This document shows, in pieces, positions 16,101 through 64,000 of a stretch of 64,000 nt of DNA (its first letter is position 1; every line of letters begins with the position of its first letter). The position numbers were made by a program, and so were the translations under genes. Source of the DNA: Mycteria americana (taxonomy: Eukaryota; Chordata; Aves; Ciconiiformes; Ciconiidae); contig NC_134368.1 of NCBI RefSeq assembly GCF_035582795.1, positions 496,001-560,000 on the forward strand, in the 5' to 3' direction. Under the pieces are notes generated by a model. That model saw only the letters and a list, made by a program, of their open reading frames with translations, had not been told where the DNA came from and made no database searches.

Positions 16101-16853
16101 CTGTCGGACGTGATGTCAAAGTGCCGTCCTGACCCGCTGTGGAGGGAAAAGACTGATTTAATGAGGCTGATCCGACCGGTGCCGCGGGCGGGGACGGGTC
16201 CTGGGCTGGGAACGCTCCCCGGCTGATGAGCTCCCCCTCTGCTCTGGCAGGCGAGCGAGGTGGTGGCCGAGGTCAAGAGGAAGCAGGAGAAGAAGGAGAA
16301 GAAGAAGAAAAAGAGGGAGAAGCGGCGGCTGGAGGCCCTGGCTGCGGCCGCAGAGGAGGTGGAGAACTCGGTGCTGGAGCCGGAGGTGAAGGCGGGGGCT
16401 GCGGGTGGGCGCCCTCCTGTGAGGGGGCCGTGACGGGCTCGGCCCTGTCCTGCTGCCTGCCGGGCTGCCGGAGCAAGGGGTGCCGGTCATTCCTCGGCCA
16501 GCCGTCCCGTCCCGCAGCCGAGCGGGGCTGGTGGGATGGGGCCTGAGCCCCGGCCCCGCAGGGGGAGGGAGGCAGGAGCTGGGGCGGCTGCCCGGGTGGG
16601 TCAGGGCTCCCGCCGACCTCAGGTTTCCCCTCAGGAGAACGACGTAGAGCCCAAGAAGAAGAAAAAGAAGAAGAAGCAGCAGCAGGAGCTGGAGGCTGAA
16701 GTGGAGCTGGAGGAGAATGGGCTGGAAGAAGAGGCCTTGCCCAAGAAGAAAAGGAAACGAACGGTAGAGGCTGACCAGGAGGAGGAGGAGGAGGAGAAGA
16801 AGAAAAAGAAGAAGAAGAAGAAAGAGAAGGCCAGGGACTTGGAGGAGGACTAG
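13102..16853 (+). CDS. NOP56: NOP56 nucleolar box C/D snoRNP core protein, complete, 12 exons
   Basis: Core protein of box C/D snoRNPs, which guide rRNA 2'-O-methylation in the nucleolus with fibrillarin, NOP58 and SNU13. Exons: 13102-13104, 13314-13403, 13579-13693, 13783-13944, 14108-14306, 14523-14710, 14838-14989, 15180-15280, 15611-15759, 15946-16067, 16251-16385, 16635-16853; they join in frame to 544 aa (human about 594). Exon 1 codes only the initiator Met; the protein starts [18 protein letters not shown] after it. The N-terminal domain is followed by a coiled coil and the Nop domain ([24 protein letters not shown]-type core and [20 protein letters not shown]). The C-terminus is a long Lys/Glu tail of KKKKKK and EEEE runs, shorter than in human. 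Same strand as DCTN1, convergent with IDH3B. Confidence 0.98.
15024..15107 (+). ncRNA. SNORD110: Box C/D snoRNA SNORD110 in NOP56 intron 7
   Basis: C box ATGATGT at 15036-15042, D' box CTGA at 15064-15067, D box CTGA at 15093-15096. The flanks ccaggccgcgg and ccccggcctgg form a terminal stem with one mismatch. The guide upstream of D' (gaatctgtcaatcc) is antisense to the 18S rRNA segment GGATTGACAGATT. By the D'-plus-five rule it points to the U in GGAU, the residue attributed to SNORD110 (18S U1288) in human. Intron position also agrees. Confidence 0.8.
15293..15398 (+). ncRNA. SNORD86: Candidate box C/D snoRNA in NOP56 intron 8 (SNORD86 position)
   Basis: Terminal stem ggtggttgc (15293-15301) pairs with gcgaccacc (15390-15398) through one G-U pair. 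C box GTGATGG at 15303-15309 and D box CTGA at 15386-15389 lie right at the stem. About 106 nt. No clear rRNA guide was seen. In mammals the intron between SNORD110 and SNORD56 carries SNORD86, an orphan snoRNA reported to regulate NOP56 splicing in cis. The assignment rests on boxes, stem and position, not on sequence identity. Confidence 0.6.
15805..15878 (+). ncRNA. SNORD56: Box C/D snoRNA SNORD56-like in NOP56 intron 9
   Basis: C box ATGATGG at 15813-15819, D box CTGA at 15871-15874, terminal stem ctctgc/gcagag. It contains tatttttcgtca, antisense to the 18S rRNA segment TGACGAAAAATA, which covers the methylated residues around human G509-C517. Intron 9 is where SNORD56 lies in mammals. 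The exact methylated base was not resolved. Confidence 0.75.
16103..16176 (+). ncRNA. SNORD57: Box C/D snoRNA SNORD57 in NOP56 intron 10
   Basis: Perfect terminal stem gtcgga (16103-16108) with tccgac (16171-16176). C box GTGATGT at 16110-16116, D' CTGA at 16129-16132, D CTGA at 16167-16170. The guide actgatttaatgag upstream of D is an exact complement of the 18S rRNA segment CTCATTAAATCAGT. The fifth base before D pairs with the A of CTCA, which is 18S A99, the known U57 target. Confidence 0.9.
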
Positions 16854-37337: not shown

Positions 37338-38024
37338 CTAGCGTGGCGGGGCTGCGGCGCGGCCGGGCAGGTCGCAGCGGTAGTGGAAGATGTGGAAGCA
37401 GAGGAGGCTGCCGAGCAGCGAGGGGCTGGAGGCGCCCACCTTCCTGAAGCCCTGGCCCTCGTAGAGCCGCTGGGCCGCCACCTGCACCATGGAGGTGGAG
37501 AGGACCACCGCCCCGTAGCCCCGTGCCCGGGCGAAGCGCAGCACCTCCCCGCAGAGCGCTTTGGAGACGCCCCGGCCCCGGTAGTCCCTGCTGACCGACA
37601 TTCGCTTCAGCTCCAGGGCCACCCCTCTCTCGGCCGGGTCTTGCGGCGCTGTCACGGCCACCATGCCCACCACGGCCCCCCCGGCCTCTGCCACCCAGAA
37701 GCAGGAGTCGGGCGCCCGCAGGTAGCTGGCGGAGATGTTGCGGAGGTCGGTGCTCAGCGCCTGGTGCACGTAGGAGGTGCTGAAGGAGCGGACCAGGAGC
37801 CAGGTGGCCACCAGCGCCAGCGCCACGGCCCCCAGCCCCAGCACCCAGTAGCCGGCAGCTGCCCGCGCTGCCACAAAGAGGACCAGCAGCCCCAGCTGCG
37901 CCCGTGCCGAGCGCAGGACGTGGCGGTAGCCGGCCGGTGCGTGCTCCAAGATGCCGTGGGCGAAGAGGGTCCGCACGGCGTCGTAGTCCTGGTCCTGGTA
38001 CTGCCGGATGCGGTAGGATGCCAT
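37338..38024 (-). CDS. NAT8-like membrane N-acetyltransferase (GNAT), copy 1
   Basis: 228-aa member of the NAT8/CML family, ER or Golgi membrane GNAT enzymes that use acetyl-CoA (mammalian members act on cysteine S-conjugates or on protein lysines). Single coding exon, start MASYRIRQYQDQDYDAVRTL; an acceptor ctgccgcag just 5' of the ATG suggests an upstream non-coding exon. After a cytosolic N-terminus comes a two-pass hydrophobic hairpin (about residues 43-80), then the GNAT core with LELKRMSVSRDYRGRGVSKA, where R-G-R-G is the acetyl-CoA loop, and a C-terminal FHIFHYRCDL. It neighbours a second paralogue at 40829-41497. The exact orthology to mammalian NAT8, NAT8B or NAT8L was not resolved. 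Confidence 0.9.
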   Translation of the reverse strand: MASYRIRQYQDQDYDAVRTLFAHGILEHAPAGYRHVLRSARAQLGLLVLFVAARAAAGYWVLGLGAVALALVATWLLVRSFSTSYVHQALSTDLRNISASYLRAPDSCFWVAEAGGAVVGMVAVTAPQDPAERGVALELKRMSVSRDYRGRGVSKALCGEVLRFARARGYGAVVLSTSMVQVAAQRLYEGQGFRKVGASSPSLLGSLLCFHIFHYRCDLPGRAAAPPR

Positions 38025-38039
38025 GGGCTGTTGGCACCT

Positions 38040-40240
38040 GCGGCATGGCACGGGGGTGTCAGGGCAGCGCCCGCCTCGGACGGGGACCCCCGGAGTATCC
38101 CCAGACCCCATCGCTGGGATGGCACAGCCGGCAAACGGGCAGGGATCGCTGCCCGAGCACCGTGCAGCTGCGGTAGCTCCCGTCGGCTGGGCACCAGCCT
38201 GCGCCCCGCATTGCCCCGCCGGCACAATTCCCCTCGTCTCACCAAAAATCACCATCGCCAGCCTGGCCTGGGGTGGGCATCTGGGAATCCCGTCCTCCCG
38301 GCCCCTTGTGCGGTTCCTGCCCCGACCCCCCCCTCACTCCTCCTCCCGCCCCCTCTTTCCCCTCGGGACCCCATGAACCCCTCCAAGCATCGCCCCTCTC
38401 GTCCCGGTTTTCCCTGCTCCCCCCAGGGCTGGAGCACCGGCCATGCCGCGGCCGGTCCCACGCAGGGGTCCCTGTGAAGGCAGGGGCGAAGGGGGCCGGG
38501 GGTCCCGTCTCCCCCTTGATGGGACCCCAGAGATTCACCCCACCCGCCCCAGGCTGCAGGGAGCGGGTTCGGGCTGGGACACCCAGGAGGGGGGAGCAGG
38601 GCCTGGGGGGGACGAAGGGAAGACCGGGAGGATGTGGGGGTGCCTGCCCCCCCTGCTCCCCGAGCAGCCCCGGGCCCCCGGCACTCACCGGCGGCGGTGC
38701 CGGCTCCCACGGCACAACGAAACCCGGGCAGAGGCGGGCAGCTGCCTGTCCTTTGCCCCGTGGTGCCGCGGCGGGAGCAGGACAAAGGGACACGGGGGGG
38801 CTGACGGACACAGAAACCCGCGGGGGCTGCTCGGGACGCGCCGTGGGCTTGTGCCCCTGCTTGCGGTGGGGGCTGAGCCACCCTGGGCACGGGGACCCCG
38901 GGCGGGGACGGCTCCCCCTGCCCCAGGGAAGGGGTTGGGGGCCCTGAGCTGCCGAAAACCCCGCGGGGGTCTGCACTGGCCTCGTCACTGGGGGCTAAGG
39001 GGGAGCGTGGCCTCAGCCCCCCCCCCCTCCCGGGGTCCCGGCACCCCACACCCCCCCCGCCTGCTGCTACCGGCTCTGCCGCTCCTCAAACCGGGGACCG
39101 CGGCTGTGCAGGTCCTTCGGGCAAACGAGGGGGGGGGGGGGGGTCCCTCGCCAGACCCTGGGGGTCTGGCAGCCCCCCCCTGCACGGGGGGAGGCCTTTG
39201 CTTCCCGCAGCCCCGGCGCTGGCCTGTGCCGATGGCTCCCACCGCTGCCGCAGAAAGATGCCGGCTGCGCTCAGCTCATCGTTCAGCAACCCTTGGGGGG
39301 GGGGGGGACTCGCCCAGCTTTTTTTTTGGGGGGTGGGGGGGGTCTGGTGACAGCACTGGGCTGTACCCACCAGCACGGCCCTTACCCAGGCTGACGGTGG
39401 CTCCGGGGACACGGCAAGCGCAGGCGCCGAAGAGGAAGTGCCGCCCCTGCCGATGCCGGGATGCTGCCATAAACTGAGCCCTGAGAAGGTTGTGGGGTCA
39501 CGCTCAGCCTTGGCTGGGTGAATGGCGGGGGGGCCACTTCTGCGTGGGGACGGGGGTCCCGGGCAGTGGCGGGGGACGGGCAGAGCCCGTCCCCCGCCAC
39601 TGCCCGGGACCCCCGTCCCCACCAAATGGAGGAGATGCTTTGGCACTGGACCCCCGCAGCGGGGGAAGCCCTTGGCGGGGGGGGGGGGGGAATCCCGGCA
39701 CATTTAAGCCCTCGGCCAGCCCCCTCCACCCTGAGCTCCCCTTTGGGGGGGGACGACACAGGCTGAGCCCCACGGACGGCACCCACCCAGCCCAGCCCCA
39801 CCGGGGACTTTGCCTGGACCCAACCGCAGGCAAGCGGCGGTGCCCGGTGCTGCCAGGCTCCCTGCCAGGGGGCTGGGGCTTGGTTTATGGCCAAGTCATC
39901 TTTCATCCCTCGAGCGAAGACCGTCGCGGTCCAAAGCGGGGCCACAAGGAGCCCTTGGGGACGGCCAGCCCCCAGGAGCGGGTGTCCTCACCCCGGGGGA
40001 CCAGCTGGCAACCGGCTGACCACCGTCCCCTGCCCAAAGACGCCCACTGGCACAGGGGGAAACGTGGGAGGGTTGTCCCCGTGGGCTTACGGTGACGCTC
40101 CGTGGGTGCAGGTCCTGGACCCTTCCCGTGGGGATGCCGCAGGGGTCCTTGCAGTGCCGGGGACCCTCATCACCCCGCTGGCGTGGCCACCCCGGGACCC
40201 TGCGCCAGCGCGGGAAGAACGACCCAGCCCAGCGCTGCGG
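38040..40240. other. GC-rich spacer between the two NAT8-like genes
   Basis: Apart from the likely 5' non-coding exon(s) of the 37338-38024 gene and the palindrome at 39544-39622, I see no gene. Several poly-G runs occur (39130-39143, 39297-39307, 39678-39691). Confidence 0.5.
39544..39622. repeat. Perfect inverted repeat, 38-bp arms, 3-nt loop
   Basis: Left arm 39544-39581 and right arm 39585-39622 are exact reverse complements, starting gtggggacgggggtcccg; the loop is aga. Either strand would fold into a very stable GC-rich hairpin. It lies between the two NAT8-like genes, outside any recognised exon. Confidence 0.95.
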
Positions 40241-40828: not shown

Positions 40829-41497
40829 TCAGGGCGTGCCGGACAGGTCGTAGCGGTAGGTGGTGACGGTGCAGTTGGCCAGGTGGCCGTAGGCGGTGGG
40901 CAGGACGTAGCGGCGGTGCCGGCGGAAGCCCAGGCGCTCGTAGAGGGCGCGAGCCTCGTGCTGCACCATCAGCGTGTTGAGCACCACGGCCCGGCAGCCG
41001 CGCTGCCGCGCGAAGGCCAGCGCGGTACGGCCCAGCGCCGTGGCGATGCCCAGGCCCCGGTAGTCCTTCCGCACCGACATCCTCTTCAACACCAGCTCCC
41101 CCTCGGCGCCGTCGTCGGCCGGCCGCACGCCCACCGTGCCCACCACCCGCTCGTCCGCCTCCGCCACCCAGAACCGGGCGCCGGCGCTCTCGGCGTAGGC
41201 GGCCCCGATGTCCCGCAGGTCGTCCCCGAGGCAGCGGTCGATGTAGGTGCTCCAGGCGCAGCCCAGGAGGTGCCGGGCCAGGGCCAGCAGCAGGGTGAGG
41301 GCCAGGACGGGCAGCAGGAGGGAGCGGGCGCTGGCCAGCAGCAGGCAGAAGGTGCAGCCCAGCGCCAGCAGCACCCAGGGCTGCCGCAGCACGTGCAGGC
41401 ACAGCGCCGGCGCGTGCTCGCTCATGCCGGTGGCGAAGACCTCGCGCGCGGCCTCCGAGTCCTCGTCGCGGTACGGCCGGATCCGGTACTCCGCCAT
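40829..41497 (-). CDS. NAT8-like membrane N-acetyltransferase (GNAT), copy 2
   Basis: 222-aa paralogue of the gene at 37338-38024, same strand, single coding exon, start MAEYRIRPYRDEDSEAAREV. It has the same plan: N-terminal segment ending MSEHAPALCLHVL, a hydrophobic two-pass hairpin (about residues 40-80), then the GNAT core VLKRMSVRKDYRGLGIATAL with the Y-R-G-L-G-I-A acetyl-CoA loop and QHEARALYERLGFRR. It ends in a TVTTYRYDL strand. An acceptor cccgccccag immediately upstream of the ATG suggests a 5' non-coding exon. The overall identity to copy 1 is moderate, so this is an old duplication. Confidence 0.9.
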   Translation of the reverse strand: MAEYRIRPYRDEDSEAAREVFATGMSEHAPALCLHVLRQPWVLLALGCTFCLLLASARSLLLPVLALTLLLALARHLLGCAWSTYIDRCLGDDLRDIGAAYAESAGARFWVAEADERVVGTVGVRPADDGAEGELVLKRMSVRKDYRGLGIATALGRTALAFARQRGCRAVVLNTLMVQHEARALYERLGFRRHRRYVLPTAYGHLANCTVTTYRYDLSGTP

Positions 41498-42086
41498 GCT
41501 GCGCGCTGGGGCGGGAGCGGGGGGGCTCAGCCCCGCGGACCCCCCGCCCCACAGCCCACCCCACCCCCCCCGCAGGCGCCCCGCGGCCCTGTCCTGCCCC
41601 CCCCCCCAGGGATCCTTCCCCACCCCCCGCAGTGACCCCGCACGCCTCCCCCCCAGTCCGCCCCCCCGCACCCCGCGGGCCCCCCCCCGCCCCCCCGGCC
41701 CCGCCCCCGCTCACCGCGCCCTCCGCCCGCACCCGCGCCGCCGCCAGCGCCCGCCTGACGCTGAGAGGGCTCGCGCCCCATTGGCCGCCGCGCCTTCCGG
41801 GGACACGCCCCTCCCGCCGCCACGAGCCAATAGGCGCCCAGCGAGGGGCGGCGGGGCGGACCCGCGGAGGGGACGGGGGACGGGGGCGGGACAGCTGGTC
41901 ACGTGGATTGGAGGCGGGAGTGGGCGTGCGGACGGGGCGGAGCAAAGGGGCGGAGCCAGGGCGTGGAGGCGGGACCTCCTTCTGCGGAGGCGCCATTGAC
42001 CTTCAGGGCAAGGGGTGGGCGGGGCCTCCGGAGGGGCGGGGTTTGCTGGGGGCCCCGGGCTGGGCTGGGCTGGGGCGGGACCCGTC

Positions 42087-42343: not shown

Positions 42344-50402
<8,059 letters not shown>

Positions 50403-50640
50403 GGCCGCGGCGGAGCGGAGCGGAGCGGCCCCCGGCCCTGCCTGCCCGGCGCTGCCCGCCCCGGCCCTCCCCCGCCGCTCTCGCCGCCCCTCCCCGCCCC
50501 CGCCCCCCGCGCCCCCCGCCCGCTCCCGCCCGGCCGGGACCCCCGGGGGGCGGCACCGGGGCCGTGGCGGAGCCGGGCCGGTCACGGACGCCCCCCCGGG
50601 CCCCGGGTGGGCTCCCACCCCCGCGGGCTCTCTTCTCTCC
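50403..50640 (-). promoter_or_regulatory. CPXM1: CPXM1 CpG-island promoter region
   Basis: CpG-dense GC-rich sequence directly upstream of the CPXM1 ATG at 50402. No TATA box seen. Transcription start not resolvable by eye. Confidence 0.45.
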
Positions 50641-50779
50641 CGCTGAGCCCGTCGCTGGCCCCAGCAGGCGAAGTGCCTCTGCCCGCACCCCTGCCCGCAG
50701 CGCTGCGCCGGGCCGGGCAGGGTGGCAGGGCCGGGGTCCCGCCGGGTGCCCGGGGGTCTGCGGAGGGGTTGGGTAAAAA

Positions 50780-50803
50780 TGCCCCCCCCCCCCCCCCCCC
50801 CCC
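50780..50803. repeat. Poly-C run
   Basis: About 23 consecutive C, interrupted by nothing visible. Length is likely variable or uncertain in the assembly. Confidence 0.85.
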
Positions 50804-50872
50804 GTGTCACCAGCTGCTCCGAGAGACCCTCGAACAGGGGACACCGGGTCCTGCCTGCTCACCCTGCAGTCC

Positions 50873-51075
50873 CTGCACCGTGTCCCCCACAGTCCTTGCA
50901 CCGTGTCCCCACCGTGTCTGCACCATGTCCCTGCTGTCCCCAGCACCATATCCCCACTGTCCTTGCACCCTGCAGCGTCCCTGCCACCCTTGCACCATGT
51001 CCCCACCATCCCCAGCACCGTGTCCCCACTGTCCCCAGCACCCTGCAGTGTCCCCGGCAGTGTCCCCTCTGCCCC
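50873..51075. repeat. Degenerate minisatellite (ccttgcaccgtgtccccac units)
   Basis: Seven or so diverged copies of a roughly 28-bp unit, tgtccccac.gtcc..gcacc, between CPXM1 and the downstream small gene. No coding role. Confidence 0.75.
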
Positions 51076-51079
51076 AGCA

Positions 51080-54000
51080 CAGCCGGTGTCTGACCCTGCT
51101 CCCGGGGCTGAAGGGGAGCAGCCGCTCGGCACCCCAGGGCCGATCCTGCCGGCAGCCCCCGGCATCGCTGCGCAGGGGAGGGGGCTGCTGGGCACCGGCA
51201 GGATGAGGCCCCAGGGGTTGTGGCCGCTCGCTGGCCACAGGAAAGCCCACAGTCCCTTCCTCCCCGCGTGCGGCAGCGTGCCGGGGCGCTGGGCTGCGGC
51301 CAGGCGGCTGCGGGGCAGCCGGACACGGGGCTGGTGGGTGCCCACCGTCCCCCAGTGCTGCCCACTGTCCCTCGGTGCTGCCAGCCGTCCCCGGTGCTGC
51401 CCGTGCCTGCCGGGGAACGCGCCCCGGCTCTGCGGGGCTGTTCCCGGAGCGGTGCCTGCACATGGCCCTTTGCTGCCACCCTTGCAGGAACGCCTGAGCT
51501 GCTTACGCAGCAGTTCTGGGAACAAAACCCTCCCTGGCTGGGATCAGCTGCTTGGCGTGTCCCCCCCCAGCCCACTCCCACTCCCCCCAGGCCATCCTGG
51601 GGTGGCCGCGGCTGCACCCCGTGCCGGGGGGGGGTGCGCTGGGCGATGCGTGGGCCCTGTGCTGTGCTGCCCTGGCCCCCGGCTGCTCCTGGCCCCGGCT
51701 CCCCCCTGCCAGGAGACCCCCAGCGTTTCCGGGCCGAACCTGGCCGTGCTCCCCGCCAACGCGGCCGGAGGCAGCTGGAGCGGCTCAGCCCTTTCCGACA
51801 GCGAGGGCAGGGAGAGTTGCGGGGGGCTCCGCCATCCCTGCCTCGCCGCAGCCGTCAGTGCCGCCGGCCGAGCCTGGGGACCCGGGAGGCCCCGGGAACC
51901 GCCTGCGCGGAGCAGAGCCTGCTCGGGCTTCGCAGCCAAGTCCCGGCGCAGAGCAGGCGCCAAGCAGAGGGATCCAGCCCTGGCCCCCGGCCCTGCCAAG
52001 CGGCGGGGACGCCCTGCCTGGTGCCCTGCCTGGGAGGGACCCCGGGGGAAGGTGGTGCCCACAGTGCCCGGTGCCCCAGGGTATTCCTGGTGGGACCACG
52101 GGCCGGGGCACCAGGCACAGGCGCTGCCGGACGGCTGTGCCAGCACCGCGGTAGGTGTGAGCGGGCCCTGCCCTGCCCCAGGTCACCTCCCTGCCGTGCC
52201 TCCCCTGGCAGCTCCGGCTGAAGCCTGCGGTGAGGTTTGAGGGGTGCGTGGTGCTGGAGCCGCTGGCCGGGCAGCGCTGGACTCGCTTCCCTGTGCTCCC
52301 TGAAAGCCCGGACTGCGCAGGCAGCGCCAGGCTCGGCACCGCCCGGGCTGCCACCACGGGCAAGGAGTGAAGCACCGCAAGGACGGAGGCGCGGGCAGGG
52401 GCCGTCAGCCCGGTGGGGTGCCCAGGGTGGGAGGTGGGGGTCCGGGTGGGAGTGCCCAGGGGTCACGGTCACACCAAGGGGGAAGGTCTCTGGGTCCTGC
52501 CTCTCCCCCCACCCAGAGCGGGATCCTCCAAAAAGCCATGACTGTGCTGCTGGCACTGCCGCCTACCTCCCATGAGCTCATTTTCCACCCCAAAAGGACT
52601 TTCCCGGCCTGACTTTTACTTCTTTTATTGGGATTTTCTACAGCCTCCAGCCGCAGGGCTGGGCCGAGGGGGTGGGAGGGAGCGGGCTGCGCTCAGGCCA
52701 CCGGCACCCTTTGGTGACAGCTCTGCATTCACCCGGCTCGTGCCCGGCTGGAGTGGGCAGGGGAGCGGAGCTGGCAGCTCAGGGCGCTGGTCCCATCCCC
52801 ATCCCCGTCCCCGTCCCCATCCCTGTCCCCTCTGCCAGGTCCCTGTGGGGCTGTCCCAGAGCCCGCTGCAGCCCGTGGCACTCGCAGCCAGCCCAGGACC
52901 CCCGGATCCCCATGCCCAGGGGCCGCAGAGGCAGCGCAGGACTCGGGGTGGTGCGGGAGGCTGCGTGGCCACCCGGCCGCTGCACGGCTGCACGCTCCTC
53001 CCGGGTGAGAGCAGCCCTCCCGGGACGGGCCAGCACCGAGAGGGGCTGTGCTCGGCTGAGGGGGGAGTGGGACGGGGTCCTCCAGCCCTGCAGCACCCAG
53101 AGGTGCTCCCATGGGACGGGGTCCTCCGTCCCAGCAGCGCCTGGGGACGTTCATTCCACATCACTGGCCGAGAGCGGGGGACGGCTGGGACCAGACCGGC
53201 GCTGGCGCGGGGCCCCGATGTCTGGCGCGCAGGATGATGCTTTGTTTCATGCCTGTCTCGGGGGGCTGGATGGTGGGAAGGGTTTTGCTATGAGCTGAGC
53301 CATCTCCCGCATCCTGCCGAGAGCTCTGGAAAGGGGCCAGGAGGGGAGGCCGCGCTCGCTGGCATGATTCAGCCCCCATGTGATGGGACTTTCTAGGTTT
53401 GCTGAAGACCTCTCTGCACCCTCCCGGCTGGGGTGCTGGGCGCAGTGCCTGGCTCCAGGGCAGGAGAGGCCAGCTGGGCTGGCCCCACTCCCGGCTTCCC
53501 GGGCCAAGGCACACAGCTCGGCAGGCTCCGGCTCTCCGATTCAGCCCCACTCAGCACTTCCAGGGATGTTATGAATTTCCCCATGCAGCTTGGCTCGGAG
53601 TCAAGCCGGCCGCGTCCGCACCGCCGGCAGCTGCCAGCTCCCACTGCGGGACATGCCTTAAAGGCGCCGTAGCCTGTCCTGGCAGGGACGTCGCTGGATG
53701 GCTGCCGCGGACCCCCCTGGCACCCCGCAGCCGGAGCGGGCGTGGCAGCGGGGCCAAACCCACCAACTCGGCATTGGAGCTGATGGCACCACCGGTGCCG
53801 GTGCTCCTGGGAAGGTCTGCTGTGGAGAAGCCCCCCTGGGATCCCTAGTGCCGGGGTGTCCCAAAAGGGGGGGGGGTCTCCCTCGGGGTGGAATGGCTGA
53901 ACACCGCGTTCCCACGCTGGGTCCCGCAGCGCCCTGCCCCCAGGGATGCCGGTGCCTTGCACCCAGTGCCGGTGCTGCCGCCTGCCTGGCTCGCTGCCCC

Positions 54001-54840
54001 GAGCTGCCCCGGCACGGGAACCACAGGCTGCGGCTGAGGCTGGGGCTGCCAGCCAAGGCAAACGCTTTGGCAGCTTCCGGGCTGGCCACGGGGCTTGTGC
54101 CCAAACCGCCCGGCCGTGCCACATCCACCCGGTGGTGCCCGGGCGGGTGGCTAAGTGCTCGGGTGCGCAGGCCGGGTGAGGGGTCCCAGGGCTGGGGGAA
54201 GGGTCCCCGGGCCAGCCTGGCCCCGTTTCTCCTTGTCCCTGTCCTGGCAGTGCCCCGTCCCACGGTGGGGGGACACGGGCTCCGCGGGCGGGCAGCGTGG
54301 GACAGAGCCCTCCTGCGTCCCCCGCGCTGGCGGGGACGGAGGCGGTGGCTGCGCGCGTGTGTGGTGTCACTGTGGTCTGGGGAGGGGCGAGGGGCTGCGA
54401 GGTGCTTTGCAAGGGGAGCTCGGGGCTGGCCCTGGCCACTGCTGCCCCGCACCAAGTGCCACAGCCCTCTGCCCACGCCTGCTCCGCAGAACCTCGGCGT
54501 GGGGGCAAGAGGGGCCGGCAGCCGCCCGGGTCCTGCCATGGCCCCCTGGCCCCAGGGAGGCCGGGCTGCAGGGCTGTCCCCTCCCTGGGGACGGCGTCAC
54601 CCCAGAAGCCCCGGTTGTGACCACCCTCTCTGCTGTCCCAGCCGGGACCTGGCCGTGCCGGGCTGGGGGGACGCTGCTGGCCACAGGATCAGCCCCAGGA
54701 CCCCAGTAGGAGCAGAGCTGCGTGTGTATCAGCCCGAGCAGGGGCTGGAGGTGCCGGGGGGGGGTCTCAGGTGCTGGACACCCTCTGGGAGCATCCCTGG
54801 GGGGCTTCCCAGCTGCAGCGCAGGCGATGCTCCACGGCTC
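51080..54840. other. GC-rich intergenic stretch without recognised gene
   Basis: Reading frames here are long only because stops are rare in GC-rich DNA; none resembles a known family. A lone AATAAA on the - strand at 52629-52624, in an AT-richer patch, could mark the end of an unrecognised minus-strand transcript. A (CCCCAT/CCCCGT)n patch lies at 52793-52828. Confidence 0.5.
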
Positions 54841-54886
54841 GGTGTCTCTGCAGGACGGATGCGGCTCCTGGGGCTGCGCAGGCACG

Positions 54887-55036
54887 ATGGGGCTGCACGG
54901 CAAGAACCAGCGGCTACTGGAGGTGGTGGCCTGCGCTGTCCTGGCCTGCTGCCTCTGCCAGGCAAACCTCTTCTTCTTCTACCTGCTCCTGCTCCTGCCC
55001 CTCATCTTCCTCTTTGAAGAGCCCATCAGAGGATGA
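54887..55036 (+). CDS. Candidate 49-aa single-pass membrane micropeptide
   Basis: Reads MGLHGKNQRLLEVV, then a long hydrophobic run rich in Ala, Cys, Leu and Phe (about residues 13-42, including NLFFFYLLLLLPL), ending EEPIRG. A splice acceptor tctctgcag at 54845-54853 precedes it, and a variant poly(A) hexamer AATACA at 55067-55072 follows the stop by 30 bp with a GT-rich tract behind it. That arrangement (acceptor, compact coding exon, poly(A)) is that of a last exon of a small gene. I do not recognise the family. The upstream exon was not identified. It could also be a chance open frame. Confidence 0.4.
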   Translation: MGLHGKNQRLLEVVACAVLACCLCQANLFFFYLLLLLPLIFLFEEPIRG

Positions 55037-55689
55037 GGATGGCCCCGGATCTTGCTTGTGCTGCTCAATACAGAGCCCTGCCCTTGCCAGCTCAGTGTCT
55101 TTGCTGGGTGCGGGTGGAAGGGTGGATGTGGGCACCCCGCTCCTGCAGCAGCTCTGTGCCCCCCCTGCTCCTCCCTGCAGCCCGTCCTGCTCCCGGGACC
55201 TGCGGACCCGGGACCATCTCCTCCACCTCCGTGGTGCCGGGTCAGTAGCCAGGGACGGGACTCGGCACTGACGGGGTCCTGCCTGGGGATGGTCTAAGCA
55301 GGACTGGCTCCAGAATCGGTCCCTCCAACCCCCTGGGCTCTGCCTGGCCCCATTCTGCTCCCCATGGGCAGCTGCAGTGGGTGATCCCCCCAAAAGTGGC
55401 TGTTGCATGGGGTGGGTGGGGGACCACGGCGGGGGGAGAGTCGGGAGCGGCGGGGTCCTGCCCAGGGACGTGCTGGAAGGGCCAGGCAGCCTCCTGGGTG
55501 CAGGGGTTAGCCCCGTGCCCAGCTTCTGCCCCTTGTAGCCCCGGTGGTGCCGGGGCAGAGGGCAGGAGGCCCCGAGTGCTCTGCTCTGCGCGGGCTCCGC
55601 TTGGACACCTAGGACCCCGCAAAGGGACAGACCCAAAAAGGGAAGCCCAGGGGACCAGTGGCAGGATCAGAGGACATCCATGTGGCTTT

Positions 55690-56030
55690 GGTCACGTGCA
55701 CCCTCCGGGCATGCACAGCCACTGGCCCCAGATAGACGCACACCCCATCCCAGACACGTGCACCCCTGGACATGCACATCCCGGACATGCACAGCCGATG
55801 GACGTGCAAACTGGGTGGACTGGGATGTGCACACGCAGTCCTGGACATGCACAACTGTTGGACACACACTTGGTGGCCCCAAACACTCCCACCCGTTGGA
55901 CACCCGCAGCTGGTGGACATGGATGCTCTCACCCATGGGCCAACCACAGACTTGGGACATGGATTGACACCAGGGGACACACACAGCCAGTGCACGGGGA
56001 CACCAGGAACACACCCCCCTTGTGTGATCA
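55690..56030. repeat. Degenerate tandem repeat (tggacatgcacaac units)
   Basis: Diverged copies of a roughly 30-bp unit containing ggacatgcaca or ggacacacac, for example around 55763, 55783, 55846 and 55858. Between the micropeptide gene and the inverted protamine-like end. Confidence 0.65.
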
Positions 56031-56150
56031 TTCCAGACTTTATTAATGGAGCTGGGGCCGCGGTGGTGCGCTGACCTGGAGGCAGCGGTGGCCGGGAGTC
56101 TCGGGGGCGTGGGATCTGCAGGTGCCTGGTGCTGGGGTCAGGTCATGGGT
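56026..56150 (-). pseudogene. Inverted protamine-like 3' end (diverged copy or relic)
   Basis: On the - strand this reads gtgggacacgcagccacccatgacctgaccccagca, then ccaccgcggccccagctccattaataaagtctggaatgatcaca. The protamine copies at 58015-58140 read gtgggacgcgcagacgccgctgctgacctcaccccagca, then ccacggtggccctggctccctcaataaagctggaatgattgca. The match spans the last codons, 3' UTR and poly(A) signal. Upstream on the - strand no Arg-rich frame of protamine length is visible, so this is either a relic or a gene that shares only its 3' end. It points the opposite way to the array. Confidence 0.55.
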
Positions 56151-56599
56151 GGCTGCGTGTCCCACGCTGCCAATGGCTCTTCCCATACCAGTGGTGTTGG
56201 CTGCACAGCCCATGGGGCCAAAAGTAGCCCATACCTGGGTCTGGCGGGGAGCTCTATCCTGTGCCGCGGTCAGGCACCAAGGGCCGGGCCAAGGCTGGGG
56301 GCAGGGGTCACCCCACGCAGGGCAGGGGGCCGGGGAAGAGCTGGGGGGCAACTGGGTGCGGATCAGCAGTGCCAGAAAGTCTGGAGGTGATGGTGTGGGA
56401 AACATGCCACGGTTTAATGACAGACGTGTCACTGAGAGCCTGGGGGATCATGGAGAGGATGGGAGACCTCTTCTCCCCGCTACAGTAGTAGATGGTGTCT
56501 ACTGGGGGTGCGTGTCCCGCGTGTGCACATGTCCAGGACCAGCGCACGTCTCCAGGGATGCAGGTGGCCCAGCCTGCCTGCTCCCGTGCTGGCTCTCGC

Positions 56600-56845
56600 C
56601 CCCGTCTCCACGTGCCAGCCCGTCTCCACGGCCCCAGTACGTCTCCATGGCCCCAGCCCATCTCCACGTCCCAGCCCATCTCCACGCCCCCAGCCCGTCC
56701 CCGCATCCCCGGCCCATCTCCACCTCCCAGTCCACCTTCACCTCCCCACACCGTTGCCGTATCCCAGCCCAGCTCCACGTCCCAGCCTGTCTCCACGTCC
56801 CCAGCCCACCTGCATGTCCCCAGCCCATCTCCAGGTCCAGAAGGG
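56600..56845. repeat. About 22-bp minisatellite inside each array unit
   Basis: Some ten copies of a unit close to cccagcccatctccacgtcc. The same tract recurs at +1,710, +3,420, +5,130 and +6,840. It carries most of the A/B diagnostic bases. Confidence 0.9.
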
Positions 56846-56863
56846 CATGGGGCTCTTGGAGCC

Positions 56864-57092
56864 GCGCCAGAGGAGGGCCACCAAAATGATGCGAGGGCTG
56901 GAGCACCTCTCCTAGGAGGACAGCCTGAGAGAGTTGGCCTTCTTCAGCCTGCAGAAGAGAAGGCTGCGGGGAGACCTTCTAGCAGCCTTCCAGTACTTCA
57001 AGGGGGGCTCTAGGAAAGACACGGACAGACTTTTTTTAGCAAGGCCTCTTGTGACGGCACGGGGAGCCATGGTTTGAAGCTAAGGGAGGGCA
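56864..57092 (+). mobile_element. CR1 LINE fragment captured in the array unit
   Basis: Contains agaggagggccaccaaaatg, ggctggagcacctctcc, aggctgcggggagaccttct and cagactttttttagcaaggc, typical of the avian CR1 3' region just upstream of its terminal tail. Amplified with the unit; further copies start at 58574, 60284, 61994 and 63704. Confidence 0.93.
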
Positions 57093-57457
57093 GGGGCTCC
57101 ATTTGGGGAAGCCCTGTGGGGACAGCCCGTCCCCATGGCACCGTGAGGCAGGCGGGGGCTTGGGCAGGACCCGGCTCAGCCCCCCGTCCCCGAGCCCACC
57201 AGCCCCAGCGCTGCCAGCCCTTGCGCCCCGGGACTGTGTCCCCGCCAGCCTGGGGGACCATGGCGGCGGCAGGTGACCACGGCACCCATGGCTCTCCCCA
57301 GGCTCCAGCTGTGGGACCCTCCTCTTCCTCCTGCACTACCACACGCTCCTGGCATCCACACCCGGGGGACAAGCAACGCTGAGCGCCTGCGCCCGTCACC
57401 CTTCCCAGCCCCGCCTGCAGGCACCAAGAGCTGGGACCATGGCGACAGCCAGCACCA

Positions 57458-57488
<31 letters not shown>

Positions 57489-57759
57489 TGCTCCCGGCAC
57501 CTCTGGCCCTTTGCCGCCTCCTCCCGCCGCGCTGCCTGCGCTGCCGCTCGGCCCGGGGGCTCCTTTTGCGTCTCCTGTGCCGGGGCAGTGACCAGCGCAC
57601 CTGCCGCCACACGGTGCCGGTGACGCGGGGCCGGTGCTGCTGCGGTGCCGCCACCCTCCTCCTGCGGGCTGGGGCTGGCCGGTCGCCATGGAGCCCGCTC
57701 GTCGCCGGGCGGCACCGTGGGGACACTGTGATGCCACCGGTGAGGTTGACGCTGTAACG

Positions 57760-57802
57760 CGCTGACATCACAAAGGGCCTCGCCCGGCACCCCCATAAAA
57801 GC
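57760..57802 (+). promoter_or_regulatory. Protamine promoter, copy 1: CRE-like site and TATA box
   Basis: TGACATCA at 57763-57770, a one-base variant of the cAMP response element, and CATAAAA at 57794-57800, 57 bp before the ATG. Mammalian protamine promoters use a similar CRE-like element read by the testis activator CREM-tau together with a TATA box; the parallel is inference. Confidence 0.75.
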
Positions 57803-57856
57803 GGGCTGGGGGGCGCAGAGCCACAGCTCCCTGTCAGGACAGGGTGGCCGGCCAGC

Positions 57857-58045
57857 ATGGCCCGGTCCCGGCGCAGCAGGCTCCGCAGCAGGAGCCGGCG
57901 GCGCCGCCACCACCCAGACCATGACGGGACGCGTCCTCGCCGCCGGTACAGGAGGACCTCACGCCGGCCTGGGGTACTCAGCCGCAGGCGGCGGTATAGG
58001 AGGACCCGCCGCCGGCGGCGTGGGACGCGCAGACGCCGCTGCTGA
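57857..58045 (+). CDS. Protamine (galline-like sperm nuclear basic protein), copy 1
   Basis: Intronless 62-aa protein, 33 Arg (53%), which would replace histones and compact sperm DNA. Starts MARSRRSRLRSRSRRRR, like the MAR.RR.R start of chicken galline, also about 62 aa. Then HHPDHDGTRPRRRYRR, TSRRPGVLSRRRRYRR and an RRRRRGTRRRR tail ending in Cys. Two Tyr lie in RRRY contexts as in galline. Odd points: an acidic/His patch (DHD) in the middle and a single C-terminal Cys, whereas galline ends in Tyr and has no Cys. TATA box 57 bp upstream and AATAAA 75 bp downstream make this a compact complete transcription unit. The DNA and protein are identical in all four copies. Confidence 0.93.
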   Translation: MARSRRSRLRSRSRRRRHHPDHDGTRPRRRYRRTSRRPGVLSRRRRYRRTRRRRRGTRRRRC

Positions 58046-58119
58046 CCTCACCCCAGCAGTGGGCGTCTGCGGAGCCGGTGGCCCCGTGACCGCCACACCA
58101 CGGTGGCCCTGGCTCCCTC

Positions 58120-58125
58120 AATAAA
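58120..58125 (+). terminator. Protamine poly(A) signal, copy 1
   Basis: AATAAA within ctccctcaataaagctggaa, 75 bp after the stop codon. Confidence 0.9.
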
Positions 58126-59167
58126 GCTGGAATGATTGCATGTGCTGTGTTGTGTCTTCCTTGTGTCCCCGTGCGCCGCCCGCGTGGACCAGGGCTGGCA
58201 CTCCGTGTCTACTGGGGCTGCGTGTCCCCTGTGTGCACGTGTCCAGGACCAGCGCACGTCTCCAGGGATGCAGGTGGCCCAGCCTGCCTGCTCCCGTGCT
58301 GGCTCTCGCCCCCGTCTCCACGTGCCAGCCCGTCTCCACGGCCCCAGTACGTCTCCATGGCCCCAGCCCATCTCCACGTCCCAGCCCATCTCCACGCCCC
58401 CAGCCCGTCCCCGCATCCCCAGCCCATCTCCACGTCCCAGTCCACCTTCACCTCCCCACACCGTTGCCATATCCCAGCCCAGCTCCACGTCCCAGCCTGT
58501 CTCCACGTCCCCAGCCCACCTGCATGTCCCCAGCCCATCTCCAGGTCCAGAAGGGCATGGGGCTCTTGGAGCCGCGCCAGAGGAGGGCCACCAAAATGAT
58601 GCGAGGGCTGGAGCACCTCTCCTAGGAGGACAGCCTGAGAGAGTTGGCCTTCTTCAGCCTGCAGAAGAGAAGGCTGCGGGGAGACCTTCTAGCAGCCTTC
58701 CAGTACTTCAAGGGGGGCTCTAGGAAAGACACGGACAGACTTTTTTTAGCAAGGCCTCTTGTGACGGCACGGGGAGCCATGGTTTGAAGCTAAGGGAGGG
58801 CAGGGGCTCCATTTGGGGAAGCCCTGTGGGGACAGCCCATCCCCATGGCACCGTGAGGCAGGCGGGGGCTTGGGCAGGACCCGGCTCAGCCCCCCGTCCC
58901 CGAGCCCACCAGCCCCAGCGCTGCCAGCCCTTGCGCCCCGGGACTGTGTCCCCGCCAGCCTGGGGGACCATGGCGGGGGCAGGTGACCACGGCACCCATG
59001 GCTCTCCCCAGGCTCCAGCTGTGGGACCCTCCTCTTCCTCCTGCACTACCACACGCTCCTGGCATCCACACCCGGGGGACAAGCAACGCTGAGCGCCTGC
59101 GCCCGTCACCCTTCCCAGCCCCGCCTGCAGGCACCAAGAGCTGGGACCATGGCGACAGCCAGCACCA

Positions 59168-59198
<31 letters not shown>

Positions 59199-59469
59199 TG
59201 CTCCCGGCACCTCTGGCCCTTTGCCGCCTCCTCCCGCCGCGCTGCCTGCGCTGCCGCTCGGCCCGGGGGCTCCTTTTGCGTCTCCTGTGCCGGGGCAGTG
59301 ACCAGCGCACCTGCCGCCACACGGTGCCGGTGACGCGGGGCCGGTGCTGCTGCGGTGCCGCCACCCTCCTCCTGCGGGCTGGGGCTGGCCGGTCGCCATG
59401 GAGCCCGCTCGTCGCCGGGCGGCACCGTGGGGACACTGTGATGCCACCGGTGAGGTTGACGCTGTAACG

Positions 59470-59512
59470 CGCTGACATCACAAAGGGCCTCGCCCGGCAC
59501 CCCCATAAAAGC
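59470..59512 (+). promoter_or_regulatory. Protamine promoter, copy 2
   Basis: Same TGACATCA (59473-59480) and CATAAAA (59504-59510) as copy 1, no base difference in this segment. Confidence 0.75.
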
Positions 59513-59566
59513 GGGCTGGGGGGCGCAGAGCCACAGCTCCCTGTCAGGACAGGGTGGCCGGCCAGC

Positions 59567-59755
59567 ATGGCCCGGTCCCGGCGCAGCAGGCTCCGCAGCA
59601 GGAGCCGGCGGCGCCGCCACCACCCAGACCATGACGGGACGCGTCCTCGCCGCCGGTACAGGAGGACCTCACGCCGGCCTGGGGTACTCAGCCGCAGGCG
59701 GCGGTATAGGAGGACCCGCCGCCGGCGGCGTGGGACGCGCAGACGCCGCTGCTGA
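59567..59755 (+). CDS. Protamine (galline-like), copy 2
   Basis: Identical 62-aa frame to copy 1, 1,710 bp downstream, in a B-type unit. Its promoter and 3' end are intact, so it looks functional. Coding identity while the flanking minisatellite differs between A and B units points to recent duplication or gene conversion, possibly with selection. Confidence 0.93.
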   Translation: MARSRRSRLRSRSRRRRHHPDHDGTRPRRRYRRTSRRPGVLSRRRRYRRTRRRRRGTRRRRC

Positions 59756-59829
59756 CCTCACCCCAGCAGTGGGCGTCTGCGGAGCCGGTGGCCCCGTGAC
59801 CGCCACACCACGGTGGCCCTGGCTCCCTC

Positions 59830-59835
59830 AATAAA
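59830..59835 (+). terminator. Protamine poly(A) signal, copy 2
   Basis: AATAAA 75 bp after the stop of copy 2. Confidence 0.9.
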
Positions 59836-60877
59836 GCTGGAATGATTGCATGTGCTGTGTTGTGTCTTCCTTGTGTCCCCGTGCGCCGCCCGCGTGGACC
59901 AGGGCTGGCACTCCGTGTCTACTGGGGCTGCGTGTCCCCTGTGTGCACGTGTCCAGGACCAGCGCACGTCTCCAGGGATGCAGGTGGCCCAGCCTGCCTG
60001 CTCCCGTGCTGGCTCTCGCCCCCGTCTCCACGTGCCAGCCCGTCTCCACGGCCCCAGTACGTCTCCATGGCCCCAGCCCATCTCCACGTCCCAGCCCATC
60101 TCCACGCCCCCAGCCCGTCCCCGCATCCCCGGCCCATCTCCACCTCCCAGTCCACCTTCACCTCCCCACACCGTTGCCGTATCCCAGCCCAGCTCCACGT
60201 CCCAGCCTGTCTCCACGTCCCCAGCCCACCTGCATGTCCCCAGCCCATCTCCAGGTCCAGAAGGGCATGGGGCTCTTGGAGCCGCGCCAGAGGAGGGCCA
60301 CCAAAATGATGCGAGGGCTGGAGCACCTCTCCTAGGAGGACAGCCTGAGAGAGTTGGCCTTCTTCAGCCTGCAGAAGAGAAGGCTGCGGGGAGACCTTCT
60401 AGCAGCCTTCCAGTACTTCAAGGGGGGCTCTAGGAAAGACACGGACAGACTTTTTTTAGCAAGGCCTCTTGTGACGGCACGGGGAGCCATGGTTTGAAGC
60501 TAAGGGAGGGCAGGGGCTCCATTTGGGGAAGCCCTGTGGGGACAGCCCGTCCCCATGGCACCGTGAGGCAGGCGGGGGCTTGGGCAGGACCCGGCTCAGC
60601 CCCCCGTCCCCGAGCCCACCAGCCCCAGCGCTGCCAGCCCTTGCGCCCCGGGACTGTGTCCCTGCCAGCCTGGGGGACCATGGCGGGGGCAGGTGACCAC
60701 GGCACCCATGGCTCTCCCCAGGCTCCAGCTGTGGGACCCTCCTCTTCCTCCTGCACTACCACACGCTCCTGGCATCCACACCCGGGGGACAAGCAACGCT
60801 GAGCGCCTGCGCCCGTCACCCTTCCCAGCCCCGCCTGCAGGCACCAAGAGCTGGGACCATGGCGACAGCCAGCACCA

Positions 60878-60908
<31 letters not shown>

Positions 60909-61179
60909 TGCTCCCGGCACCTCTGGCCCTTTGCCGCCTCCTCCCGCCGCGCTGCCTGCGCTGCCGCTCGGCCCGGGGGCTCCTTTTGCGTCTCCTGTGC
61001 CGGGGCAGTGACCAGCGCACCTGCCGCCACACGGTGCCGGTGACGCGGGGCCGGTGCTGCTGCGGTGCCGCCACCCTCCTCCTGCGGGCTGGGGCTGGCC
61101 GGTCGCCATGGAGCCCGCTCGTCGCCGGGCGGCACCGTGGGGACACTGTGATGCCACCGGTGAGGTTGACGCTGTAACG

Positions 61180-61222
61180 CGCTGACATCACAAAGGGCCT
61201 CGCCCGGCACCCCCATAAAAGC
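61180..61222 (+). promoter_or_regulatory. Protamine promoter, copy 3
   Basis: TGACATCA (61183-61190) and CATAAAA (61214-61220), identical to copy 1. Confidence 0.75.
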
Positions 61223-61276
61223 GGGCTGGGGGGCGCAGAGCCACAGCTCCCTGTCAGGACAGGGTGGCCGGCCAGC

Positions 61277-61465
61277 ATGGCCCGGTCCCGGCGCAGCAGG
61301 CTCCGCAGCAGGAGCCGGCGGCGCCGCCACCACCCAGACCATGACGGGACGCGTCCTCGCCGCCGGTACAGGAGGACCTCACGCCGGCCTGGGGTACTCA
61401 GCCGCAGGCGGCGGTATAGGAGGACCCGCCGCCGGCGGCGTGGGACGCGCAGACGCCGCTGCTGA
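61277..61465 (+). CDS. Protamine (galline-like), copy 3
   Basis: Identical coding sequence to copies 1 and 2, in an A-type unit, with intact promoter and poly(A) signal. Confidence 0.93.
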   Translation: MARSRRSRLRSRSRRRRHHPDHDGTRPRRRYRRTSRRPGVLSRRRRYRRTRRRRRGTRRRRC

Positions 61466-61539
61466 CCTCACCCCAGCAGTGGGCGTCTGCGGAGCCGGTG
61501 GCCCCGTGACCGCCACACCACGGTGGCCCTGGCTCCCTC

Positions 61540-61545
61540 AATAAA
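61540..61545 (+). terminator. Protamine poly(A) signal, copy 3
   Basis: AATAAA 75 bp after the stop of copy 3. Confidence 0.9.
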
Positions 61546-62587
61546 GCTGGAATGATTGCATGTGCTGTGTTGTGTCTTCCTTGTGTCCCCGTGCGCCGCC
61601 CGCGTGGACCAGGGCTGGCACTCCGTGTCTACTGGGGCTGCGTGTCCCCTGTGTGCACGTGTCCAGGACCAGCGCACGTCTCCAGGGATGCAGGTGGCCC
61701 AGCCTGCCTGCTCCCGTGCTGGCTCTCGCCCCCGTCTCCACGTGCCAGCCCGTCTCCACGGCCCCAGTACGTCTCCATGGCCCCAGCCCATCTCCACGTC
61801 CCAGCCCATCTCCACGCCCCCAGCCCGTCCCCGCATCCCCAGCCCATCTCCACGTCCCAGTCCACCTTCACCTCCCCACACCGTTGCCATATCCCAGCCC
61901 AGCTCCACGTCCCAGCCTGTCTCCACGTCCCCAGCCCACCTGCATGTCCCCAGCCCATCTCCAGGTCCAGAAGGGCATGGGGCTCTTGGAGCCGCGCCAG
62001 AGGAGGGCCACCAAAATGATGCGAGGGCTGGAGCACCTCTCCTAGGAGGACAGCCTGAGAGAGTTGGCCTTCTTCAGCCTGCAGAAGAGAAGGCTGCGGG
62101 GAGACCTTCTAGCAGCCTTCCAGTACTTCAAGGGGGGCTCTAGGAAAGACACGGACAGACTTTTTTTAGCAAGGCCTCTTGTGACGGCACGGGGAGCCAT
62201 GGTTTGAAGCTAAGGGAGGGCAGGGGCTCCATTTGGGGAAGCCCTGTGGGGACAGCCCATCCCCATGGCACCGTGAGGCAGGCGGGGGCTTGGGCAGGAC
62301 CCGGCTCAGCCCCCCGTCCCCGAGCCCACCAGCCCCAGCGCTGCCAGCCCTTGCGCCCCGGGACTGTGTCCCCGCCAGCCTGGGGGACCATGGCGGGGGC
62401 AGGTGACCACGGCACCCATGGCTCTCCCCAGGCTCCAGCTGTGGGACCCTCCTCTTCCTCCTGCACTACCACACGCTCCTGGCATCCACACCCGGGGGAC
62501 AAGCAACGCTGAGCGCCTGCGCCCGTCACCCTTCCCAGCCCCGCCTGCAGGCACCAAGAGCTGGGACCATGGCGACAGCCAGCACCA

Positions 62588-62618
<31 letters not shown>

Positions 62619-62889
62619 TGCTCCCGGCACCTCTGGCCCTTTGCCGCCTCCTCCCGCCGCACTGCCTGCGCTGCCGCTCGGCCCGGGGGCTCCTTTTGCG
62701 TCTCCTGTGCCGGGGCAGTGACCAGCGCACCTGCCGCCACACGGTGCCGGTGACGCGGGGCCGGTGCTGCTGCGGTGCCGCCACCCTCCTCCTGCGGGCT
62801 GGGGCTGGCCGGTCGCCATGGAGCCCGCTCGTCGCCGGGCGGCACCGTGGGGACACTGTGATGCCACCGGTGAGGTTGACGCTGTAACG

Positions 62890-62932
62890 CGCTGACATCA
62901 CAAAGGGCCTCGCCCGGCACCCCCATAAAAGC
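62890..62932 (+). promoter_or_regulatory. Protamine promoter, copy 4
   Basis: TGACATCA (62893-62900) and CATAAAA (62924-62930), identical to copy 1. Confidence 0.75.
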
Positions 62933-62986
62933 GGGCTGGGGGGCGCAGAGCCACAGCTCCCTGTCAGGACAGGGTGGCCGGCCAGC

Positions 62987-63175
62987 ATGGCCCGGTCCCG
63001 GCGCAGCAGGCTCCGCAGCAGGAGCCGGCGGCGCCGCCACCACCCAGACCATGACGGGACGCGTCCTCGCCGCCGGTACAGGAGGACCTCACGCCGGCCT
63101 GGGGTACTCAGCCGCAGGCGGCGGTATAGGAGGACCCGCCGCCGGCGGCGTGGGACGCGCAGACGCCGCTGCTGA
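62987..63175 (+). CDS. Protamine (galline-like), copy 4
   Basis: Identical coding sequence to copies 1-3, in a B-type unit, with intact promoter and poly(A) signal. A fifth unit begins at 63335, but its gene position lies beyond the window. Confidence 0.93.
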   Translation: MARSRRSRLRSRSRRRRHHPDHDGTRPRRRYRRTSRRPGVLSRRRRYRRTRRRRRGTRRRRC

Positions 63176-63249
63176 CCTCACCCCAGCAGTGGGCGTCTGC
63201 GGAGCCGGTGGCCCCGTGACCGCCACACCACGGTGGCCCTGGCTCCCTC

Positions 63250-63255
63250 AATAAA
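63250..63255 (+). terminator. Protamine poly(A) signal, copy 4
   Basis: AATAAA 75 bp after the stop of copy 4. Confidence 0.9.
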
Positions 63256-63334
63256 GCTGGAATGATTGCATGTGCTGTGTTGTGTCTTCCTTGTGTCCCC
63301 GTGCGCCGCCCGCGTGGACCAGGGCTGGCACTCC

Positions 63335-64000
63335 GTGTCTACTGGGGCTGCGTGTCCCCTGTGTGCACGTGTCCAGGACCAGCGCACGTCTCCAGGGATG
63401 CAGGTGGCCCAGCCTGCCTGCTCCCGTGCTGGCTCTCGCCCCCGTCTCCACGTGCCAGCCCGTCTCCACGGCCCCAGTACGTCTCCATGGCCCCAGCCCA
63501 TCTCCACGTCCCAGCCCATCTCCACGCCCCCAGCCCGTCCCCGCATCCCCGGCCCATCTCCACCTCCCAGTCCACCTTCACCTCCCCACACCGTTGCCGT
63601 ATCCCAGCCCAGCTCCACGTCCCAGCCTGTCTCCACGTCCCCAGCCCACCTGCATGTCCCCAGCCCATCTCCAGGTCCAGAAGGGCATGGGGCTCTTGGA
63701 GCCGCGCCAGAGGAGGGCCACCAAAATGATGCGAGGGCTGGAGCACCTCTCCTAGGAGGACAGCCTGAGAGAGTTGGCCTTCTTCAGCCTGCAGAAGAGA
63801 AGGCTGCGGGGAGACCTTCTAGCAGCCTTCCAGTACTTCAAGGGGGGCTCTAGGAAAGACACGGACAGACTTTTTTTAGCAAGGCCTCTTGTGACGGCAC
63901 GGGGAGCCATGGTTTGAAGCTAAGGGAGGGCAGGGGCTCCATTTGGGGAAGCCCTGTGGGGACAGCCCATCCCCATGGCACCGTGAGGCAGGCGGGGGCT
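63335..64000 (+). repeat. Protamine tandem array, unit 5 (partial, cut by window end)
   Basis: A-type in the minisatellite (ccccggcccatctccacctc, gttgccgtatcc) but B-type at the later site (cagcccatcccc near 63964). The array therefore continues past the window and unit 5 is a mosaic. Confidence 0.95.

Follow-up and report, generated by a model that had tools for sequence, protein, structure and literature searches.

A tandem array of galline-type protamine genes in Mycteria americana, probably the product of a young amplification

How would a sperm chromatin gene that birds are described as carrying in two identical copies (PMC7126135) come to lie in a tandem array of four or more? The question is raised by a 64,000-nucleotide stretch of the Mycteria americana genome (contig NC_134368.1, positions 496,001 to 560,000; hereafter the window), the right end of which consists of 1,710-bp units that each contain, when complete, a short arginine-rich open reading frame (ORF). 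The original prediction, made from the letters alone, had called this end an array of protamine genes and had put the galline genes of chicken at two, a number that the statement on birds in PMC7126135 backs. We find that the array is in all likelihood real and young, and that it exceeds the two copies that birds are said usually to have. We consider it probable that an avian galline-type protamine gene, lying in a region rich in GC and dense in genes, was recently amplified in tandem.

A repeat search over positions 50000-64000 returned five copies at an exact spacing of 1710 bp, the first at 56495, and all units are arranged head-to-tail. Tandem Repeats Finder (TRF), run with a long period limit, reported 56495-64000 with period 1710, 4.4 copies and 99% matches. 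Together with a column-by-column comparison of the copies, these searches bear out the predicted 1,710-bp array with at least four identical coding copies. Because copy 1 differs from the other copies at 4 of its first 35 bp (31/35 identical, 89%), the strict repeat unit begins after about 56529. The array and its genes are as follows.

56495..64000, + strand: tandem array with a 1,710-bp repeat unit; four units are complete, and the window ends 666 bp into the fifth
57857..58045, + strand: protamine gene copy 1, 62 amino acids (aa)
59567..59755, + strand: protamine gene copy 2, identical to copy 1
61277..61465, + strand: protamine gene copy 3, identical to copy 1
62987..63175, + strand: protamine gene copy 4, identical to copy 1

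The four ORFs are equal letter for letter, lie within identical flanks of 325 bp upstream and 375 bp downstream, and read from the DNA alone run uninterrupted from ATG to stop in every complete unit. Their product, MARSRRSRLRSRSRRRRHHPDHDGTRPRRRYRRTSRRPGVLSRRRRYRRTRRRRRGTRRRRC, is short and about half arginine (33 Arg in 62 aa), as expected of a galline-type protein, with two tyrosines and one cysteine, the latter at the C-terminus; the arginine codons are mixed (13 CGC, 10 CGG, 7 AGG, 2 CGT and 1 AGA). With thresholds of 50 aa for length and 40% for arginine content, 4 ORFs in the window qualify, compared with 0 in 60 order-1 Markov shuffles of the 64 kb, a test in which the four count as one, being copies of one thing. 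Chicken galline is encoded by a short, intronless, arginine-rich ORF with a CRE/TATA-type promoter (CRE, cyclic AMP response element). At the N-terminus, 11 of the first 13 residues agree with the chicken galline sequence, a level reached in 0 of 20000 composition shuffles, and the conserved start MAR.RRSR.RSRS of that sequence is present. Since the N-terminus, the promoter layout described below and the uninterrupted ORF all fit galline, the 62-aa ORF is very probably an avian protamine of the galline type, and the proposal that a protamine-type gene has been amplified in tandem is supported.

Upstream and downstream of each coding sequence lie motifs that could make every complete unit a transcription unit of its own.

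57763..57770 (copy 1; repeats at 59473, 61183 and 62893), + strand: CRE-like TGACATCA, 94 bp before the ATG, with 7/8 letters of the CRE consensus
57794..57801 (copy 1; repeats at 59504, 61214 and 62924), + strand: TATA-like CATAAAAG, 63 bp before the ATG
58120..58125 (copy 1; repeats at 59830, 61540 and 63250), + strand: AATAAA, 75 bp after the stop codon, with a GT-rich stretch just downstream

All three stand at the same offsets in 4/4 complete units, so that by motif the claim of a separate promoter and polyadenylation signal for each unit holds. The pairing of a CRE-like element with a TATA box near the start is that of galline, with one mismatch in the CRE and with matches judged against consensus sequences. 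On the + strand of the window, TGACATCA and CATAAAAG occur in the array only, four times each, and TGACATCA is found once more on the - strand. AATAAA is weak evidence because it is common across the window, with 8 occurrences on the + strand and 9 on the - strand.

The unit also contains two repeat-like stretches.

56601..56838 (copy 1 coordinates), no strand assigned: minisatellite with a 19/56-bp period, present in all five copies and containing three A/B-type variable columns
56838..57060 (limits approximate), + strand: piece inside each unit that looks like the 3' portion of a CR1 retroposon, judged by eye against the CR1 consensus

The CR1-like piece, the GC level and the protein together speak for bird DNA. 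Additional genes inside the unit were considered and rejected: six of the long overlapping ORFs around copy 1 (among them two minus-strand ORFs of 282 and 248 aa) returned no Pfam family at E up to 0.01, and such ORFs are taken to be by-products of the GC-rich sequence. The Pfam input consisted of 31 stop-free stretches, some overlapping and some being start-to-stop pieces, whereas the window contains 674 stop-to-stop ORFs of at least 60 aa, so the gene list for the window is incomplete.

How old is the array? Variation is confined to 11 of the 1710 columns. Four of these reflect the first 35 bp of copy 1 and seven lie further in, with columns 667-1710 compared in four copies because copy 5 is partial. 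Columns 217, 230 and 265 alternate A-B-A-B-A across copies 1-5, and column 635 reads G-A-G-A-A. When the first 35 bp are set aside, two positions distinguish copy 1 from copy 3 and one distinguishes copy 2 from copy 4, whereas A-B pairs among the four complete copies differ at five or six per 1675 bp; over 631 bp, the partial copy 5 shows one difference from copies 1 and 3 and three from copies 2 and 4. Expressed by distance along the array, there are 8 mismatches in 4086 at lag 3420 and 23 in 5796 at lag 1710; the left edge of copy 1 contributes four mismatches to each count. CpG transitions (CG versus CA or TG) account for five of the seven inner variants, and they are the mark of germline mutation, unlike random assembly error. 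The avian substitution rate is near 2e-9 per site and year, and at that rate the 0.3% divergence of A from B suggests either an age below about a million years or recent conversion. Set beside the two copies described for birds, the array suggests that copies were gained recently and possibly still are.

The identity of the coding copies, which the original prediction had treated as a special feature, does not keep that standing. In 20000 trials of random placement, seven variants missed the stretch from CRE to AATAAA in 18.7% and five variants (the linked three taken as one) did so in 29.7%; a variant-free gap of at least 889 bp arose by chance in 8% of cases with seven variants and in 24% with five. 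As random variants spare the gene in 19-30% of trials, we rejected coding identity as a sign of purifying selection or strong homogenisation.

To the left of the array lies a second protamine-like sequence pointing the other way.

55961..56312, - strand: inverted, decayed protamine copy, traced by gapped alignment, its 5' end unrecognisable

BLASTN aligned unit positions 1520-1592 with 56171-56102 on the opposite strand (71%, E 0.002) and unit positions 1602-1680 with 56068-55992, also on the opposite strand (75%, E 9e-8). A gapped alignment scored 135, whereas none of 500 base shuffles exceeded 50; it has large gaps and runs from about codon 15 through the stop codon and AATAAA into the flank, the match being clear in the last 17 codons. 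In the frame that matches the protamine end, the inverted copy reads WYGKSHWQRGTRSHP-stop compared with RYRRTRRRRRGTRRRRC, and two in-frame stops lie further up. The alignment includes 32 protamine CpG sites, of which the inverted copy retains 7 and shows TG or CA at 13, whereas only 3 of 14 CpG sites of the inverted copy are TG or CA in protamine; the observed/expected CpG ratio is 0.38 in the inverted copy versus 0.83 in the gene region. CpG loss has therefore occurred mainly in the inverted copy, which is the decayed member of the pair. We also considered an intact second protamine gene on the minus strand left of the array, and rejected it in view of the two upstream stops in the matching frame and a promoter side at chance level. 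The lowest BLASTN E-value for the unit against the window (2e-9) belongs not to the inverted copy but to a match between the unit's minisatellite and another minisatellite at 42.6 kb, which is taken as simple-repeat similarity. That second minisatellite, of the CCCCAT type, occupies 42642-43144 beside carboxypeptidase exons and is about 67-70% similar to the protamine-unit minisatellite.

A sequence of events compatible with this anatomy can be proposed. The ancestral state may have been two protamine genes pointing apart, of which one decayed and the other was duplicated, possibly through unequal exchange between short similar stretches flanking a single gene. The first 35 bp of copy 1 would then be the left similar stretch, and their 89% likeness to the other unit starts is what would be expected of such a flank; the adjacent minisatellite with its 19-bp period may have helped the exchange. 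Once two units were present, further exchange would have been easy. Most simply, a later doubling of a two-unit block, plus conversion or mutation at column 635, could have produced the A-B-A-B-A order. We predict that CREM-type control drives transcription of each unit in spermatids, and that with the array more is made of one protamine that takes the place of histones in sperm. By analogy with histone gene arrays, the gain could be more template for an mRNA needed briefly and in bulk.

Several observations weigh against the proposed amplification of a galline-type gene or against parts of its history. Over its whole length the protein aligns only modestly with galline, since 16 of 2000 composition shuffles score as high, and the 62-aa protein has an HHPDHDG stretch and a C-terminal cysteine that the chicken protein lacks. 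Pfam returned no family and a PDB sequence search no match for the 62-aa protein, an outcome that would be unsurprising for such low-complexity proteins, and the promoter motifs are consensus matches only. On its promoter side the inverted copy shows no similarity above chance (score 37; in 200 shuffles the 95% value was 45 and the maximum 60), and its 5' part is therefore lost or beyond recognition. The dimer (A-B) pattern in the history of the array is suggestive only, because three A and two B copies alternate by chance 1 time in 10; the alternation comes down to three tightly linked columns, and column 635 breaks it in copy 5. Finally, the breakpoints are guesses, as the right edge of the array lies beyond the window.

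An alternative is that the assembler multiplied one or two true units or interleaved two haplotypes. Near-identical repeats are a classic trouble spot for assembly, the A and B types could be two alleles, and copies 2 and 4 are one base apart. However, the window contains no N (count 0), the copies are pairwise distinct, and a predominance of CpG transitions (5/7 variable columns) argues for germline mutation rather than random error; moreover, interleaved alleles would more naturally give blocks than alternation. The worry about assembly voiced in the original prediction is thus weakened by the distinct copies, the mostly CpG-type differences and the N-free sequence, and it persists to the extent that copies differ by as little as one base. 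We judge an artefact improbable.

Selection is harder to judge. Sperm competition, which the original prediction raised as a possible driver, finds no support in these data. If the gene were carried along passively by a GC-rich repeat that is unstable and contains a minisatellite, copy number could drift in the manner of a satellite without benefit to the bird, and the anatomy would be the same as under amplification for dosage, the two accounts differing in the selection step only. A minisatellite is present in every copy, GC content is at least 65% in 50 of 64 one-kb windows (range 53-82%), the identity of the coding copies is explicable without selection, and strong local repeat turnover has been described in introns on chicken dot chromosomes (PMC12954441). 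Against this, the motifs make up one entire transcription unit in every complete repeat, and 4/4 genes are intact. Such neutral expansion is a serious possibility, if a somewhat less than even one, and at present drift is nearly as good an account as selection for dosage. Genetic conflict seems a far more distant prospect. Extra protamine copies could act in spermatids as a transmission distorter or its suppressor, as proposed for sperm nuclear basic protein (SNBP) genes in Drosophila, where 19 independent SNBP amplifications are reported, many of the amplified genes lying in tandem arrays (PMC9917458), and where the Y-linked Mst77Y is dominant-negative (PMC10120018). Those amplifications, however, prefer sex chromosomes (PMC9917458), and the protamine copies here are identical rather than diverged. 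Male birds are ZZ, moreover, and X-versus-Y drive is inapplicable to them. We regard this explanation as very unlikely.

A young amplification of a galline-type gene remains our preferred reading, and its setting is gene-rich. From left to right the window contains a dynactin subunit 1 (DCTN1) exon, NOP56, IDH3B, VPS16, two GNAT ORFs, an M14 carboxypeptidase, a stretch without identified gene, the inverted copy and the array. By their predicted products, the neighbours of the array are ordinary vertebrate genes. One DCTN1 exon was recognised in the window; at the IDH3B locus, the Pfam family Iso_dh fell just below the cut-off. PDB matches of the M14 carboxypeptidase include carboxypeptidases D, N and M, and from a motif and the human neighbours we take it to be CPXM1. 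The two GNAT ORFs are neighbours on the same strand and are presumably NAT8-like, and two small nucleolar RNA genes lie inside NOP56, as expected.

15808-15878, + strand: SNORD56
16105-16173, + strand: SNORD57
37341-38333, - strand: GNAT acetyltransferase ORF (Pfam)
40832-41710, - strand: GNAT acetyltransferase ORF (Pfam)

Between the carboxypeptidase gene and the array, a small ORF at 54827-55036 (+ strand) ends ...QANLFFFYLLLLLPLIFLFEEPIRG with a strongly hydrophobic segment; Pfam gave no family above the cut-off for it, and it is possibly a gene for a small membrane protein. A further GC-rich minisatellite, with a 24/72-bp period and about 17 copies of 24 bp, lies at 49808-50211.

More broadly, a locus where identical, intact copies stand in an array next to a dead inverted one would be a natural experiment on how the dosage of sperm chromatin proteins matters. 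The dosage of the two human protamines matters for male fertility (PMC10120018). Array and dead copy together would also bear on the birth and death of protamine genes, and the array on whether sperm nuclear proteins are amplified outside sex-chromosome conflict. Older bird assemblies may hide further copies in GC-rich regions. The size of the array decides between a modest gene cluster and a protamine macrosatellite, that is, dozens or more copies with a dimer structure, running from the housekeeping genes into heterochromatin and varying in number among individuals. We think the macrosatellite rather doubtful; if it were true, this bird would have a fast-changing quantitative trait in the dose of its sperm DNA packing protein.

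Among the matches listed in a search of the open-licence PMC literature by title and abstract start, none described a bird protamine array. The main texts of PMC12954441 and PMC13192246 yielded no mention of DCTN1, NOP56, IDH3B or VPS16, and PMC10360393 names PHF7 as an expanded family and mentions protamine once, in its description of PHF7. Among the closest known systems is chicken galline, which shares the short, uninterrupted arginine-rich ORF, the MAR-RRSR-RSRS start and the CRE/TATA-type promoter, and which ends in a tyrosine, whereas the array protein has a His/Asp stretch and a C-terminal cysteine. Bird protamine genes are also said to number two (PMC7126135), in contrast to the four or more in the array. 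In the complete chicken genome, amplified genes on seven of 10 dot chromosomes are testis-biased or testis-specific and are typically located towards the border of the pericentromeric heterochromatin (PMC9974502). The tandem multiplication of a protamine gene resembles these amplicons, as in both a gene presumably expressed in testis is repeated in tandem within GC-rich bird DNA; the chicken amplicons differ in that they lie in pericentromeric heterochromatin, that one of them has 386 copies and that protamine is not named in the section of PMC9974502 on them. The Drosophila SNBP amplifications (tHMG, Mst77Y and Dox relatives) are likewise young arrays, many of them tandem, of genes that encode sperm nuclear basic proteins, although they involve other proteins, are preferentially sex-linked and in some cases have diverged from the parent gene (PMC9917458). 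Fish, in which one species can have several protamine genes, provide a parallel in their protamine multigene families (PMC7126135).

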